From assembly GCF_963576615.1 (NCBI RefSeq), contig NC_088710.1:6259396-6323395 (forward strand): DNA of 64,000 nt, written 5' to 3'. Numbering within the stretch: the first letter of the stretch is position 1; every line of letters begins with the position of its first letter. This DNA comes from Watersipora subatra (Eukaryota > Bryozoa > Gymnolaemata > Cheilostomatida > Watersiporidae). Positions 31,420 through 54,584 of the stretch are shown here, piece by piece. The position numbers and the translations under genes were made by a program. The notes under the pieces are model-generated. The model was not told the DNA's origin, did no database searches, and saw only the letters and a list, made by a program, of their open reading frames with translations.

Positions 31420-34400
31420 TTATCGTCGGTCTGCAAACAGAATACAGATATATATATATACTACCTTATAATATGCAGAATTTTACAAAAATAGTTGATC
31501 CATATGAAAGATTACGATAACTTACCGGAGGTAGAATAAGGTGACGTGAACGATCTAGCCTGGACTCCACCGACGTATATGGTTGTTGTTTTGATGGGAC
31601 CTCCACTCGATCGCCCAGCATCGCCTTTAGCATTACCTGAAGCATTTAGAAAGCAAGAATGACCAAAGTAAATAATGGGCTGTATAAATTTTAATAGAAA
31701 ATAGTAAAAACAAGGCGAGTTTGCAGTATATCTTCTTTGGTACTCGGCTTCATTCTATTGGCTGCAGCTCCGCCTGGCTTGTCATTCACTTCTTGCAGTT
31801 GCGTTGTGTCTATAGGGCAATCGAACCTCGACATACCCGTATTGTCAGGTGATGGAGGTCAAACTTTTAAAAAATTACATACAGAATTTAAACAAATACC
31901 TCATATAATCCAACATAATACTATGTATGAAATCAAATAGAGAATATGGGTTGTTAAATGTAACTTCAAATTGAGATGCAGCCATGTTTTTTTATAAGCT
32001 CGTCTAACTTAAAATGAGATTAACTTTAAATTATCATGAACTATTTATATTTTGTTTTATTTCCATATCAGGTCATGTTACAATATTTATGATTATCACA
32101 ACCAGCCTTTCCTTTTTTACTAGCCTTCGGTTTCTTTTTGTATAACTCGCTTCATTATGATAACTGTAAATGGCTTTGTGGACTTGTTTAAAAATTAATT
32201 TGAAAATGTTTGCTCATGTTTTACCATTAGTTGTTGGTTCAATAATAAAACAAATTATCATCTTTTCCCGTTAATACTACTATTCGTACTAGTTTTGTAG
32301 GGATCCGTGCATTTGAAACTAAAAAAGCATAAAGCACTATTAGATTTATTTCAAGCATTGAAGAACCAAACAATGTGAAAGAGAATTGCATACGCATGTC
32401 CTGATTGACACAACCGTTCGCTTCAAAAAATTTCATCTTGTTTTAGAAAAATATTCTTATATGGAGAGGAATATTTGCTGGCGTTTTTCGCTGTGTATAT
32501 CGAAAAATTCTTATACTGCGGGCTTAATAATATTGAAATCAACTGACATGATAACGTAGGATAAATCTAGCAATATTTACATGACAAAGTAAAACCAACA
32601 TAACATCAGACAAACCTGCATTAAATGAAGTGTCCTTGCTTACAGTGCCAGTGTTTCCATTGGCAGAAGCCACCTGCTGCTGTCCATTTGCTGCCATGTA
32701 TTGACCTGACTGCTGTTTTCCTGTATTATACCCACCTTGATTACCTACAACCACATAATAACTTTACGAGATAGACAAAAATGACAGCCTTTTTTACACA
32801 AATACCTACCTCCATATCTCCGTATCGCCACAATTTCCTATCTCAGATCCTATTTCAATCGCCTATCGGTTAAAAAACTCCTATCAAACACACACACCCC
32901 CCTTCCCAATAGATTTACAACAACAAAAATCACTCTAAGATGACAAAACGAGATCTTATAATATACCGAGCATCGGCGGAGAAGACATCTCCATAACTAA
33001 TTGAATATCTACAGAGCTGAGCTGACGCATGCATGAAGAATCAATGTTTCCTTCCGTATTTCCATTGGTTTGTCTGGAAAAAACTTTGGTTAAAGCTGAC
33101 CCTAACCAAACAAATACCAGACACTAAAGGAGACATTTGTACTCACTGCAATCTAGCATACCGTAAAACCTCTAATTGAATGCCACCTCTATTTGAACGC
33201 CACCTCCAATTGACCACCACCCTGAGAGAAGGGTTGAAAAATACACCGCCAATCTCCAATTGAACGCCACTTCCATTTGACCGCAACTTTGACATTATTT
33301 GATCTTTCAGAGTCCATATTACCAACTGATCAGTAGAAAAGTGTACACAAAATCGTATTAATAATGAATCGTTTATATCAATAACAGTTAATTCTCTTGT
33401 TGTCCAATTCCAAAGTTTTCGTTTTTTTCGTTAAAACTTTGAAAGCAACACCGTAACAATGATCAACCACTGTCTCAGGCTAGTAGTAGCTCCCTGTTTA
33501 ACGCGGTCTTTCTACTTCGAATTAGCCTACATCTATAAAAAAAAACGACTTAAATGTATGATGGAACTTGGAAAGCAATGCCATAGAAATAACTACTATC
33601 TCAGGCTAATAGTAGTACCTTGTTTAACGTGGTCCTAATACTTCGAAGGACATGCATATAAAAACCAGTTCACAAGTTTTGGACCAAATGTTATACGTTT
33701 AGCGAGCAAACGTTCAGCACCCGTGCTAAATGGAGCACGTGAAAGTTTTGCTCGGCCAAAAAATTGTTTGGACACTAATATCGACTGGTTCAGCAGTGCA
33801 GAAAAAGAATTGAAGCCAGAAGATATTGTAGAAGGTATTGGACAACTAGAAGATGTTCGTTCCATCGAATGCAACAATCAGAACGCAGGTATCCGAGCAA
33901 ACGATGGAAATATTCTTGTTTTAAAAACGTTAATTCTTGTTTCTGCATGTAATATAAGTATGGTTCGTTTATGTAACTTGTACATGAAAATATATTTGTA
34001 TCATTTGATAGATTATTGTTGTATAACTTATAAATATGCAGATTTATAGCATGTTATTTAATAGCATTTTGGGGCTATCTTAACACGGCTTACAATTGAT
34101 CGATGCCCATAACTCCACTTCTATTGCCCACATAAAAAGCCAAGTTTGGCTGCAAACTGTAGCAAATATATCAGTGATTGCAATGAGCTTTTATTCAACG
34201 ATGTTAAATATAGATAAAAATATGTCTTAAACTTTAGAATGAAATAAAAATTGAAAACGCCAACAAATTGCAAAGAAGGACACAAGCTATAATAGCATCG
34301 CAAGTCTATTGCAAGCAATAGATATCAACTGGTAGAGATATTTCTTGGTTTCTTGTTGCATATTTATTTAGAGATCTTGGACAAGTTAGAGGTAAGTTAG

Positions 34401-53300: not shown

Positions 53301-54584
53301 CATGTCTAAATAAGTAAACATGGTGGTGTACACAGAGAAGAAACCGGTGTTTGTGTGATTGGTCAAAATTGTTCATTCCTATTAACATACCTATGATTCA
53401 ATTTTATTACTTCTGTCTCTCATTCCATTTGAGATTCACATTCAAACGGTAGTGATGTGGCATCACACAAATGGCTATTTTATATGGACAAAGATATTCA
53501 CACTTACAACTGATATACGAATTTCAATCGGGCAAATAGAAGCTGTCCATAACACCTTTCGTATTTATCGTTAGATAATTGCAAATGAGAAGAAACAAAG
53601 CTTTTCTCTAGTTGCATTTTTTATTGACATTAATTGTACTTGGCTGATTCTCATCATCAACTTTTAATGGTTTTTCTTCATGGAGAAATATAGCGACAGC
53701 AGTACAAATGTTACCGCTAACTCAGATGGTCGACGATACATAACAGAAAGGTACTATGCCGATATTATACTTTAATAATGCCAATAAAAAATTCAGCGGG
53801 AATATTATGACCTTCACTGTGGTCAATTCTTAATCTATTTGTAACATAGTTGTTAAAATTTGTTAACTTTATTAACATGTTCTGAGCGACCACGGCGAAT
53901 ATCTGTAGTGCATGCCAGCCATCCATGTTGTCGGCGTATGTGGCCAGGCCTGAATTTGATGTAATGTTTAAAGGCTTTTTACATTTAAAAATAGCTTTTG
54001 TTTTGTCTATAGACGGAAGAGAAGACTTCACGAGGATTTAATAGGGGCCTTCAGCCAGAGAAGATTATTGGTGCTACAGACAGCGGTGGTCAGCTCATGT
54101 TTTTAATGAAATGGTGGGTCTCTTTCTGTGAGTTGAATACTTCCTTCATGTCTGGTTCAGACCAATGTCATATGTATGGCCTACGAGGTGTTGCACCCTG
54201 GTACGCCCGCCGCATAGGACAATGCTCTTATGGAGTACTCGTAGGATTTATTTATGTCATCCTTCAGATCCCATAGCTATCGCCGGTTCATGCACACCTG
54301 CATAAGCTTGCATAGCTGTGGGCAGCACTGGTGACATTGGTCTGAGCCAGGCAATACGAAGGTCTCTGCATAACGAAGGTCTCTGCATAACTCACAACTT
54401 ATGTTATTATAATGGCGACTATCCACAGCATGCCTGACACCACGTGACATGTACTTGCAGGAAAGACTGTGAGGAGGCTGACTTGGTGCCGGCTAAGCAA
54501 GCGAATGTACGTTGTCCACAGGTTGTCATTGCTTTCTATGAGGAGAGGCTCACGTGGCACACTCCTGAGGAGGAGAAGAAGTAG
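44398..54584 (+). CDS. HP1: Heterochromatin protein 1 (HP1/CBX family)
   Basis: Four coding exons: 44398-44543, 49039-49195, 54013-54113 and 54461-54584 (TAG at 54582-54584). Phases are consistent and the product is 175 residues. Residues about 22-72 are a chromodomain ([29 protein letters not shown]). The aromatic cage that reads methylated H3K9 is present as Phe/Trp/Tyr, with Phe at the first position as in CBX3. A basic hinge ([15 protein letters not shown]) follows. Residues about 108-170 form a chromoshadow domain ([36 protein letters not shown]), the dimerisation and PxVxL-binding module. The two-domain layout and size identify a CBX1/3/5-type HP1 rather than a Polycomb CBX. Introns 1 and 2 are 4.5 and 4.8 kb and full of mobile elements. 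The gene is head-to-head with hnRNP copy 2 and convergent with the Mab-21-fold gene. Confidence 0.95.
45434..45620 (+). repeat. Interspersed repeat shared with 50616-50800
   Basis: From TACAGTGCA onward the two stretches share GATGTGGAAC, AATTTGGY and AATACGTC words in the same order, with perhaps 70% similarity. One lies in each large intron of HP1. TACAGT at the start suggests a mariner/Tigger-type end. The other end was not found. Confidence 0.5.
46140..46232 (-). repeat. Tigger/pogo end fragment
   Basis: The reverse complement starts CAGTCATACCTCGGCATATA and continues with TTAATGCATTC and CTGAGCTTGTATGT. It matches the left end of the nested Tigger-type element at 23933 over about 60 bases. 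Only one end was identified. Confidence 0.6.
46682..48495. mobile_element. CCCTACAGG element, copy 1 (HP1 intron 1)
   Basis: Inverted ends CCCTACAGGATGAA and TTCATCCTGTAGGG are flanked by TA (46680-46681, 48496-48497). Both ends carry clusters of CGCGAA/TTCGCG words within 150 bp. The interior holds plus-strand exon-like pieces ([13 protein letters not shown] then GTATGT, and CTGCAG then [11 protein letters not shown] with a stop), and minus-strand frames such as [15 protein letters not shown] and [20 protein letters not shown]. None is recognised. A second copy at 51004-52792 is about 93-95% similar by eye. TA targets point to a Tc1/mariner-related or other TA-targeting superfamily. Confidence 0.85.
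49431..50239. mobile_element. PIF/Harbinger-like element, copy B
   Basis: Inverted ends AGGCGTGGTCACACGAGCAC and TGCTCGTATGACCACGCCT, with TAA duplications at 49428-49430 and 50240-50242. The interior matches copy A (23550-25618) but lacks its nested Tigger insertion, giving the intact TA target at 49805-49806. At 809 bp it has no transposase. It lies in HP1 intron 2. Confidence 0.8.
50616..50800 (+). repeat. Interspersed repeat shared with 45434-45620
   Basis: The second copy of the TACAGTGCA-starting repeat, with the shared order CATATGATGTGGAAC, CTCTCGAAATTCCAATTTGG and AATACGTCG. It is in HP1 intron 2; the first copy is in intron 1. Confidence 0.5.
51004..52792. mobile_element. CCCTACAGG element, copy 2 (HP1 intron 2)
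   Basis: Same ends and orientation as 46682-48495, with TA at 51002-51003 and 52793-52794. Interior frames correspond, including the premature TAG shortly after ATGGCTTCAGCA, so the parent was already non-coding or that ATG is not the start. Small indels distinguish the two (for example, part of the second plus-strand exon is missing here). Nothing suggests that the copies arose by local duplication of flanks; each has its own TA site. Confidence 0.85.
52909..52989. repeat. Tandem palindromic array
   Basis: About four alternating units of AGTTACTTACAGTAACTAT and its reverse complement lie end to end, so the array can fold into nested hairpins. Each unit also holds GTAAGT or TTACAG, the words of splice donors and acceptors, on both strands. 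It is in HP1 intron 2, 115 bp from the end of the CCCTACAGG element. Confidence 0.85.
53100..53190 (+). repeat. Tigger-type terminal relic shared with 13210-13290
   Basis: Read on the minus strand this begins near ACTACCGCTATATGACATTA and continues ATCCGTTCCAGTGTTGG, then GTATAGAGGGGTATAGAAACC. The same order is at 13210-13290. The AGTGTTGGCATC core is not known to me from a named family. Confidence 0.45.

Follow-up and report, generated by a model that had tools for sequence, protein, structure and literature searches.

Our analysis identifies a head-to-head pair of an HP1 gene and an hnRNP A/B gene in the bryozoan Watersipora subatra. The window, a 64-kb stretch of chromosome 3 (C3) with no N in it, carries the HP1 gene on the plus strand and copy 2 of a tandemly duplicated hnRNP A/B gene on the minus strand; both predicted models are intact, and their start codons lie 993 bp apart (43405-44397). 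Two head-to-head pairs of these families, CBX5-HNRNPA1 and CBX3-HNRNPA2B1, are described in vertebrates (PMC4721113), and what is new here is the bryozoan example. The arrangement suggests that such a unit is older than the split between bryozoans and vertebrates.

Results

The exons of both genes were predicted from sequence. The features of the window are as follows.

12558..18263, minus strand: RRM-coding portion of hnRNP A/B copy 1, the tandem duplicate, with no HP1 adjoining
18263-18252 (start, MTEF), 17826-17693, 17538-17418, 12989-12782, 12678-12558, minus strand: exons of copy 1
31420..43404, minus strand: hnRNP A/B copy 2 gene model, 11 coding exons, 414 aa
43404-43393, 39088-38955, 38833-38713, 36063-35856, 35752-35632, 35542-35532, minus strand: copy 2 exons 1-6
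35179-35099, 35016-34711, 32744-32616, 31636-31526, 31430-31420, minus strand: copy 2 exons 7-11
43405..44397, no strand: putative promoter region, shared or back-to-back, separating the divergent start codons; unique in the genome
43420..43570, no strand: CpG-denser block adjoining the hnRNP start, 10 CpG in 151 bp, GC 43.7%, o/e 1.41
44361..44397, plus strand: pyrimidine-rich stretch ending ...ctactttggtag/ataATG just before the HP1 start, as read from the sequence
44398..54584, plus strand: HP1 (CBX1/3/5-type) gene model, 4 coding exons, 175 aa
44398-44543, 49039-49195, 54013-54113, 54461-54584, plus strand: predicted HP1 coding exons

The two genes

The HP1 model has GT-AG borders in all three introns and translates into 175 residues with one stop. 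Its product combines an N-terminal chromodomain (Pfam Chromo, 81.4 bits, residues 23-72) with a C-terminal chromo shadow domain (Chromo_shadow, 109 bits, residues 116-167), the combination by which HP1 proteins were recognised, and its top PDB match is CBX5 (8uxq, E 3.1e-56). Both Chromo_shadow matches found in the genome (13 candidates scored) are exons of this very gene, and a second HP1 elsewhere was therefore rejected. Within the limits of this search HP1 appears to be single-copy in Watersipora, in contrast to the three genes of mammals (PMC4721113), and its adjacency to an hnRNP gene is thus not a case picked from many copies. The search with the chromodomain gave at least 144 matches (150 of 204 candidates scored), of which four loci were read; one, at C2:69.6 Mb, was judged by eye to be of a different chromodomain type, and at the other three the domain was not visible in the frame that was read, so that these have no bearing on the question.

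The partner gene, hnRNP A/B copy 2, has GT-AG borders in ten of ten introns, and its 414 residues with one stop comprise two RRMs and a tail rich in N, Q, M and G. The RRM_1 score is 119.6 bits, with two stretches within the first 199 residues, and the same 199 residues, used as a query, matched hnRNP A1 best in the PDB (8x0n, E 2.2e-50), the ranking being headed by A1 and A2B1. The first exon, MAEF followed by gtaagt, is matched by MTEF followed by gtaagt at 18263 in tandem copy 1, which supports the start codon of copy 2.

Six hnRNP A/B loci were counted in the Watersipora genome, and membership was judged by the presence of two RRMs together with grouping with A/B proteins and not with HNRNPD, Musashi or DAZAP1. 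In a tree of 15 rows, of which ten are reference rows and three represent the four copies on C2, the five Watersipora rows and A1, A2B1, A3, A0 and Hrb98DE were split at 95/94 from HNRNPD, Sqd (the fly row flagged as a long branch), MSI1, DAZAP1 and Hrb27C. As regards one-to-one orthology with a vertebrate A/B gene, the five Watersipora rows form one clade (100/98), and the reference A/B rows come together at only 74/69; identity to human A1 is 49 and 51% for the window copies and 42-45% for the three C2 rows. The tree and the PDB ranking together reject the possibility that the window genes are relatives of HNRNPD, Musashi or DAZAP1.

The tandem copies were compared over 594 bp, with a dN/dS of 0.14 (NG86) or 0.27 (YN00); the exons of copy 1 that follow on the 3' side, as far as about 10 kb, were identified by eye alone. 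Copy 2, the partner of HP1, has the longer branch in the tree (0.13 vs 0.028 for copy 1) and so is not evidently the principal hnRNP gene. The sequences upstream of the two copies are unalike (score 23 vs a shuffled mean of 23.3), and the start of copy 1 is CpG-dense without having an HP1 partner. Copy 1 was considered as a second hnRNP-HP1 unit and rejected, because all chromo-shadow matches fall in one HP1 gene and the upstream sequences do not resemble each other.

The interval between the start codons

Searching the genome with the 993-bp interval returned one match, the interval itself. Divergent pairs are usually defined by transcript starts less than 1 kb apart, whereas the distance given here is that between start codons; 993 bp is near this usual limit. 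The sequence-only reading described the divergent genes and the gap exactly, and it also called the interval AT-rich without an evident CpG island, which agrees with a GC content of 31.5%, though CpG is not depleted: there are 27 CpG (2.7 per 100 bp) and the o/e ratio is 1.11. This ratio exceeds that of 94% of the 1-kb stretches of the window, whose overall value is 0.71. However, the HP1 introns also come close to 1 (0.99 and 0.97, with 1-kb stretches in intron 1 reaching 1.0-1.09), so the CpG level of the interval is not distinctive.

CpG rises at the hnRNP start, with 10 in 43401-43600 vs 0-1 per 200 bp across 43001-43400, and the denser block was found at the hnRNP side of the interval only. 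We regard this block as a candidate for the hnRNP core promoter; as many CpG occur in 2.7% of the 150-bp stretches of the window, and the block is in this sense not rare. It contains AAGATGG at 43535, which we take to be a YY1-like motif and which may be there by chance. Several TATAAA strings occur in the interval. At the opposite end, the pyrimidine-rich stretch is possibly the 3' splice site of an intron in the 5'UTR; if real, it would place the HP1 transcript start farther upstream.

Neighbourhood

Vertebrate HNRNPA, CBX and NFE2L genes adjoin Hox clusters (PMC2080641, PMC10927551, PMC3196546), and there, too, the two families are adjacent, as with cbx5 and hnrpa1 beside HoxCa. The vertebrate neighbours that we searched for are dispersed in Watersipora. 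None of the five bZIP_Maf matches in the genome lies on C3, and five of the 14 PX matches do, the nearest about 29 Mb from the pair; the exon-by-exon search behind these counts can miss genes, and none of the matches was shown to be NFE2L or SNX10/11, respectively. Homeodomain matches number 68, and of ten places that were read nine had a readable frame. Three homeodomains at C1:7.37-7.45 Mb are, we assume, Hox-type, and one at C3:5.38 Mb is presumably Mnx-like. The vertebrate pair stands beside Hox, whereas in Watersipora the pair is on C3 and the Hox-type homeodomains were found on C1. The open reading frame at 56747-57595 matched no Pfam family, nor any PDB entry at E values up to 1.

Discussion

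The explanation that we find probable, though well short of certain, joins three elements. The divergent housekeeping pair would go back to a common ancestor with CBX5-HNRNPA1 and CBX3-HNRNPA2B1; the interval of roughly 1 kb would form a single open region that carries two core promoters back to back and keeps both genes broadly expressed; and selection against breaking this region would hold the pair together while the tested neighbours dispersed. The intact models, the 993-bp gap, the grouping with A/B proteins, the dispersed neighbours and the CpG rise at the hnRNP start speak for it; the long branch of copy 2, the unlike upstream sequences, the one-sided CpG block and the behaviour of human CBX5 and HNRNPA1 (see below) weigh against it. 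We consider it the best reading of this one non-vertebrate genome that its pair and those of vertebrates go back to the same unit, and the interval is a putative shared promoter that may be under selection. It had been proposed from the sequence that the vertebrate pairs are duplicates of one unit that predates vertebrates. Descent of the vertebrate pairs from one unit fits the Hox-flanking position of HNRNPA, CBX and NFE2L; the greater age of the unit is likely rather than proven, its basis being one protostome genome.

One would argue that the descent is real but that two independent promoters are kept together by inertia, as breaks in a short interval are rare. The gap near 1 kb and the CpG block on the hnRNP side agree with this, copy 1 with its own CpG-dense start indicates that an hnRNP gene needs no HP1 partner, and in a human cancer panel expression was correlated between CBX3 and HNRNPA2B1 but not significantly so between CBX5 and HNRNPA1 (PMC4721113). 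The last pair has a common promoter, and a shared promoter therefore need not mean shared regulation. However, the pair is intact where the tested vertebrate neighbours are dispersed, and the layout was kept in two vertebrate pairs (PMC4721113), so that we hold inertia for a possible but distinctly less likely explanation. Going beyond the preferred explanation, the unit could predate the protostome-deuterostome split as a relic of an NFE2L-HNRNPA-CBX-Hox neighbourhood, kept together in a rearranged genome because the interval is itself a conserved element which, by coupling HP1 to a strong housekeeping promoter, prevents HP1-dependent silencing from switching off the gene it depends on; this we offer as speculation, rather unlikely in its full form.

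Could the interval work as a chromatin-opening element of the kind described at HNRNPA2B1-CBX3 (PMC5554207)? The sequence-only reading correctly named both vertebrate pairs and the documented element at HNRNPA2B1-CBX3. Human CBX3-HNRNPA2B1, with its A2UCOE, has the same gene families in the same orientation as Watersipora, and CBX5 (HP1 alpha) likewise stands head to head with HNRNPA1. However, such elements are recognised by a CpG-rich, methylation-free island spanning both promoters: A2UCOE has 142 CpG in 1,550 bp (9.2 per 100 bp) and 64.0% GC (PMC5554207), far above the values of our interval, and CpG sites are critical for the activity of the human CBX3 element (PMC5554207). The CBX5-HNRNPA1 interval also has a CpG island, and no TATA elements (PMC4721113), in contrast to the GC-poor bryozoan interval with its TATAAA strings; the CBX3-HNRNPA2B1 promoter region is given as 0.4 kb (PMC4721113), a different measure from our start-codon spacing. 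An A2UCOE-like element working without a CpG island is thus improbable, and it overlaps the preferred explanation instead of adding to the odds. Given an o/e ratio of 1.11, a CpG block at the hnRNP start and the critical role of CpG sites in the human element, the idea that this pair would separate a conserved function from CpG content is not supported in the form proposed.

It is equally improbable that a rearrangement in the bryozoan lineage joined the genes by coincidence and the vertebrate likeness is convergent: bryozoan genomes are reported to be heavily rearranged, the six hnRNP A/B loci offer several opportunities and the adjacency is known here from one animal genome, but the rough chance that the 5' neighbour of HP1 is a divergent hnRNP A/B gene is about 1.8e-4 (six loci, 16,835 genes), lower still once a gap below 1 kb is counted, and two vertebrate pairs have the same families in the same orientation (PMC4721113).

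The published absence of bryozoan microsynteny was judged on blocks of five or more genes, which says little about pairs. An amphioxus study inferred 372 putatively ancestral bidirectional promoters for chordates (PMC6292497), long-lived divergent pairs of the kind that the Watersipora genes would be; the terms 'hnrnp' and 'cbx' are absent from its main text. Neither gene is named in the main texts of PMC8851819 and PMC3815023, and our literature search for HP1-hnRNP A/B adjacency in other non-vertebrate lineages found no such statement.

The preferred explanation, an inherited pair with a shared open region protected from breakage, would bring a much-used human regulatory locus into a protostome. 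Genome comparison could then test how old the arrangement is, and whether its CpG island belongs to the ancestral state or to vertebrates. Should the pair prove to be conserved in different phyla although its surroundings are scattered, the interval would be a candidate for unusually old cis-regulatory constraint.

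Results

Gene models and identity of the pair

The sequence-only reading had placed hnRNP A/B copy 2 (minus strand) and HP1 (plus strand) head to head, and this arrangement is borne out by intact gene models. The HP1 model encodes 175 aa in 4 coding exons and the hnRNP model 414 aa in 11, both with GT-AG at every intron and one terminal stop, and 993 bp (43405-44397) lie between the two start codons; the window spans C3:6259396-6323395 and holds no N bases. The start codon of copy 2 (first exon MAEF) is supported by its tandem duplicate, copy 1 (minus strand, start codon at 18263), because the first exon of the latter (MTEF) matches and has the identical donor. 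When the interval was searched against the genome (239 contigs, 783,720,542 bases, about 32 kb below the published 240 scaffolds and 783,752,486 bp; PMC12902671), the sole match was the interval itself.

The HP1 product matches the Pfam families Chromo and Chromo_shadow, and its best PDB match is CBX5. With 13 candidates scored genome-wide, the chromo-shadow family gave 2 matches, both of them exons of this gene. The hnRNP product carries two RRMs (Pfam) and its PDB ranking is headed by A1 and A2B1. In a tree of 15 rows (5 from Watersipora and 10 reference rows) a split of 95/94 unites the five Watersipora rows with A1, A2B1, A3, A0 and Hrb98DE, and the Watersipora rows form a single clade (100/98); support for the A/B reference rows as a group is no higher than 74/69, and Sqd carries a long-branch flag. 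Of the 23 matches in the hnRNP A/B search, 8 fall in the window and 12 on contig C2, and 3 weaker RRM1 matches lie elsewhere; from these, 6 hnRNP A/B-like genes were counted, 2 in the window and the rest as follows:

C2:33.80-33.86 Mb (3 genes) and C2:1.86 Mb (1 gene), loci L026-L029: four further hnRNP A/B-like genes, three in tandem

Against human A1 the two copies in the window reach 49 and 51% identity (171 and 175 bits), and the three C2 rows, from which some stretches are missing, 42-45% (142-155 bits). Copy 2 has a longer branch than copy 1. Their dN/dS is 0.14 (NG86) or 0.27 (YN00) and, on this sequence comparison, the two copies taken as a pair are under purifying selection. They share 90.7% identity over 667 bp, introns included, round the RRM2 exon (35434-36094 against 12354-13020) and are less alike in the remaining matched stretches, which suggests a recent duplication or gene conversion. 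Among the three C2 genes compared, the RRMs are 92-97% identical.

Composition of the interval

The interval had been described as AT-rich and lacking an evident CpG island. That description stands (GC 31.5%), but the interval is not depleted of CpG: its o/e is 1.11, above the 0.71 of the window. The CpG peak adjoins the hnRNP start: 43401-43600 contains 10 CpG, compared with 0-1 per 200 bp across 43001-43400. Any special CpG status of the interval is weakened, since the HP1 introns reach similar values (0.99 and 0.97, with certain 1-kb stretches of intron 1 at 1.0-1.09). The start of copy 1 has a stronger peak (17 CpG in 18301-18500, o/e 1.9); by 150-bp counts this stretch, just upstream of the start codon, is the densest in CpG of the window, and it contains GCATGCGCATG, which we take to resemble an NRF1 site. 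The stretch directly before the HP1 start reads like a 3' splice site, and the HP1 transcript may therefore begin with a non-coding exon that lies farther upstream. Chance may account for the YY1-like string at 43535 and for the several TATAAA strings in the interval.

Other features of the window

13917-16427, minus strand: 836-aa ORF, by eye LINE-type endonuclease and reverse transcriptase, in the large copy 1 intron that separates the RRM1 exon from the RRM2 exon
29156-29650, minus strand: ORF, weak match to a Tc3-type transposase helix-turn-helix (29.7 bits, where the curated threshold is 31.5)
46690-48490 and 51005-52790: similar stretches in HP1 introns, by eye with apparently inverted ends (ccctacaggatgaa ... 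ttcatcctgtaggg), seemingly two copies of a single mobile element
56747-57595, minus strand: 282-aa ORF downstream of HP1, matching no Pfam family and no PDB entry
59467-60405, both strands: short tandem repeats in which several frames are open

Discussion

The vertebrate parallel invoked earlier, CBX3-HNRNPA2B1 and CBX5-HNRNPA1, is on record for human: PMC4721113 describes both, suggests that the two are evolutionarily related, and gives correlated expression for CBX3-HNRNPA2B1 and not for CBX5-HNRNPA1. No invertebrate HP1-hnRNP A/B pair was reported among the matches listed from the main texts of the open-licence literature, and earlier reports are quite possible.

Could the bryozoan adjacency be a coincidence? 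With 6 loci among the 16,835 annotated protein-coding genes of tzWatSuba1.1 (11 chromosomes; PMC12902671), the chance that the 5' neighbour of HP1 is a divergent hnRNP A/B gene is roughly 1.8e-4. A gap below 1 kb adds a further factor of 0.02 under a uniform spacing model, which disregards that closely spaced head-to-head genes are over-represented in animals. In amphioxus, 25% of neighbouring genes have a bidirectional-promoter arrangement, and 372 putatively ancestral bidirectional promoters were inferred for chordates (PMC6292497). Because chance is improbable and the vertebrate parallel exists, common descent with the vertebrate pairs is favoured.

In vertebrates HoxCa is flanked by cbx5, hnrpa1 and nfe2, and HoxBb by cbx1 and nfe2l1 (PMC2080641); HOXD and HOXA lie with HNRNPA3/HNRNPA2B1 and NFE2L2/NFE2L3 (PMC3196546), and Hox-syntenic genes include Hnrnpa and Cbx (PMC10927551). 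Therefore, a single unit, copied along with the Hox regions, is the most likely origin of both vertebrate pairs. In contrast to this neighbourhood of NFE2L, HNRNPA and CBX, the Watersipora pair on C3 stands without the neighbours tested, since their matches are located elsewhere: the 5 bZIP_Maf matches on C1, C2 and C4, and the 14 PX matches with 5 on C3, the closest about 29 Mb from the pair. Three homeodomains, which we take to be Hox-type, lie at C1:7.37-7.45 Mb. A homeodomain 0.87 Mb from the pair (C3:5384600-5384900, L035) is presumably Mnx/HB9-like, and its presence on this chromosome may be a remnant of former linkage or a coincidence. According to PMC13326412, microsynteny is almost absent between cheilostome bryozoans and the molluscan and nemertean taxa compared there, but that comparison used blocks of at least 5 genes and bears little on pairs. 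The isolation of the pair from the tested neighbours, in this one genome, fits a constraint on the pair.

A chromatin-opening function separable from CpG richness, as had been proposed, is not indicated by the sequence, because the interval has 2.7 CpG per 100 bp against 9.2 in the human chromatin-opening element A2UCOE, and CpG sites proved critical in the human CBX3 element (both PMC5554207). We infer a shared promoter function for the interval, in which two core promoters would sit in one open region between HP1 and hnRNP copy 2. Most simply, the Watersipora genes are a retained ancestral divergent pair.
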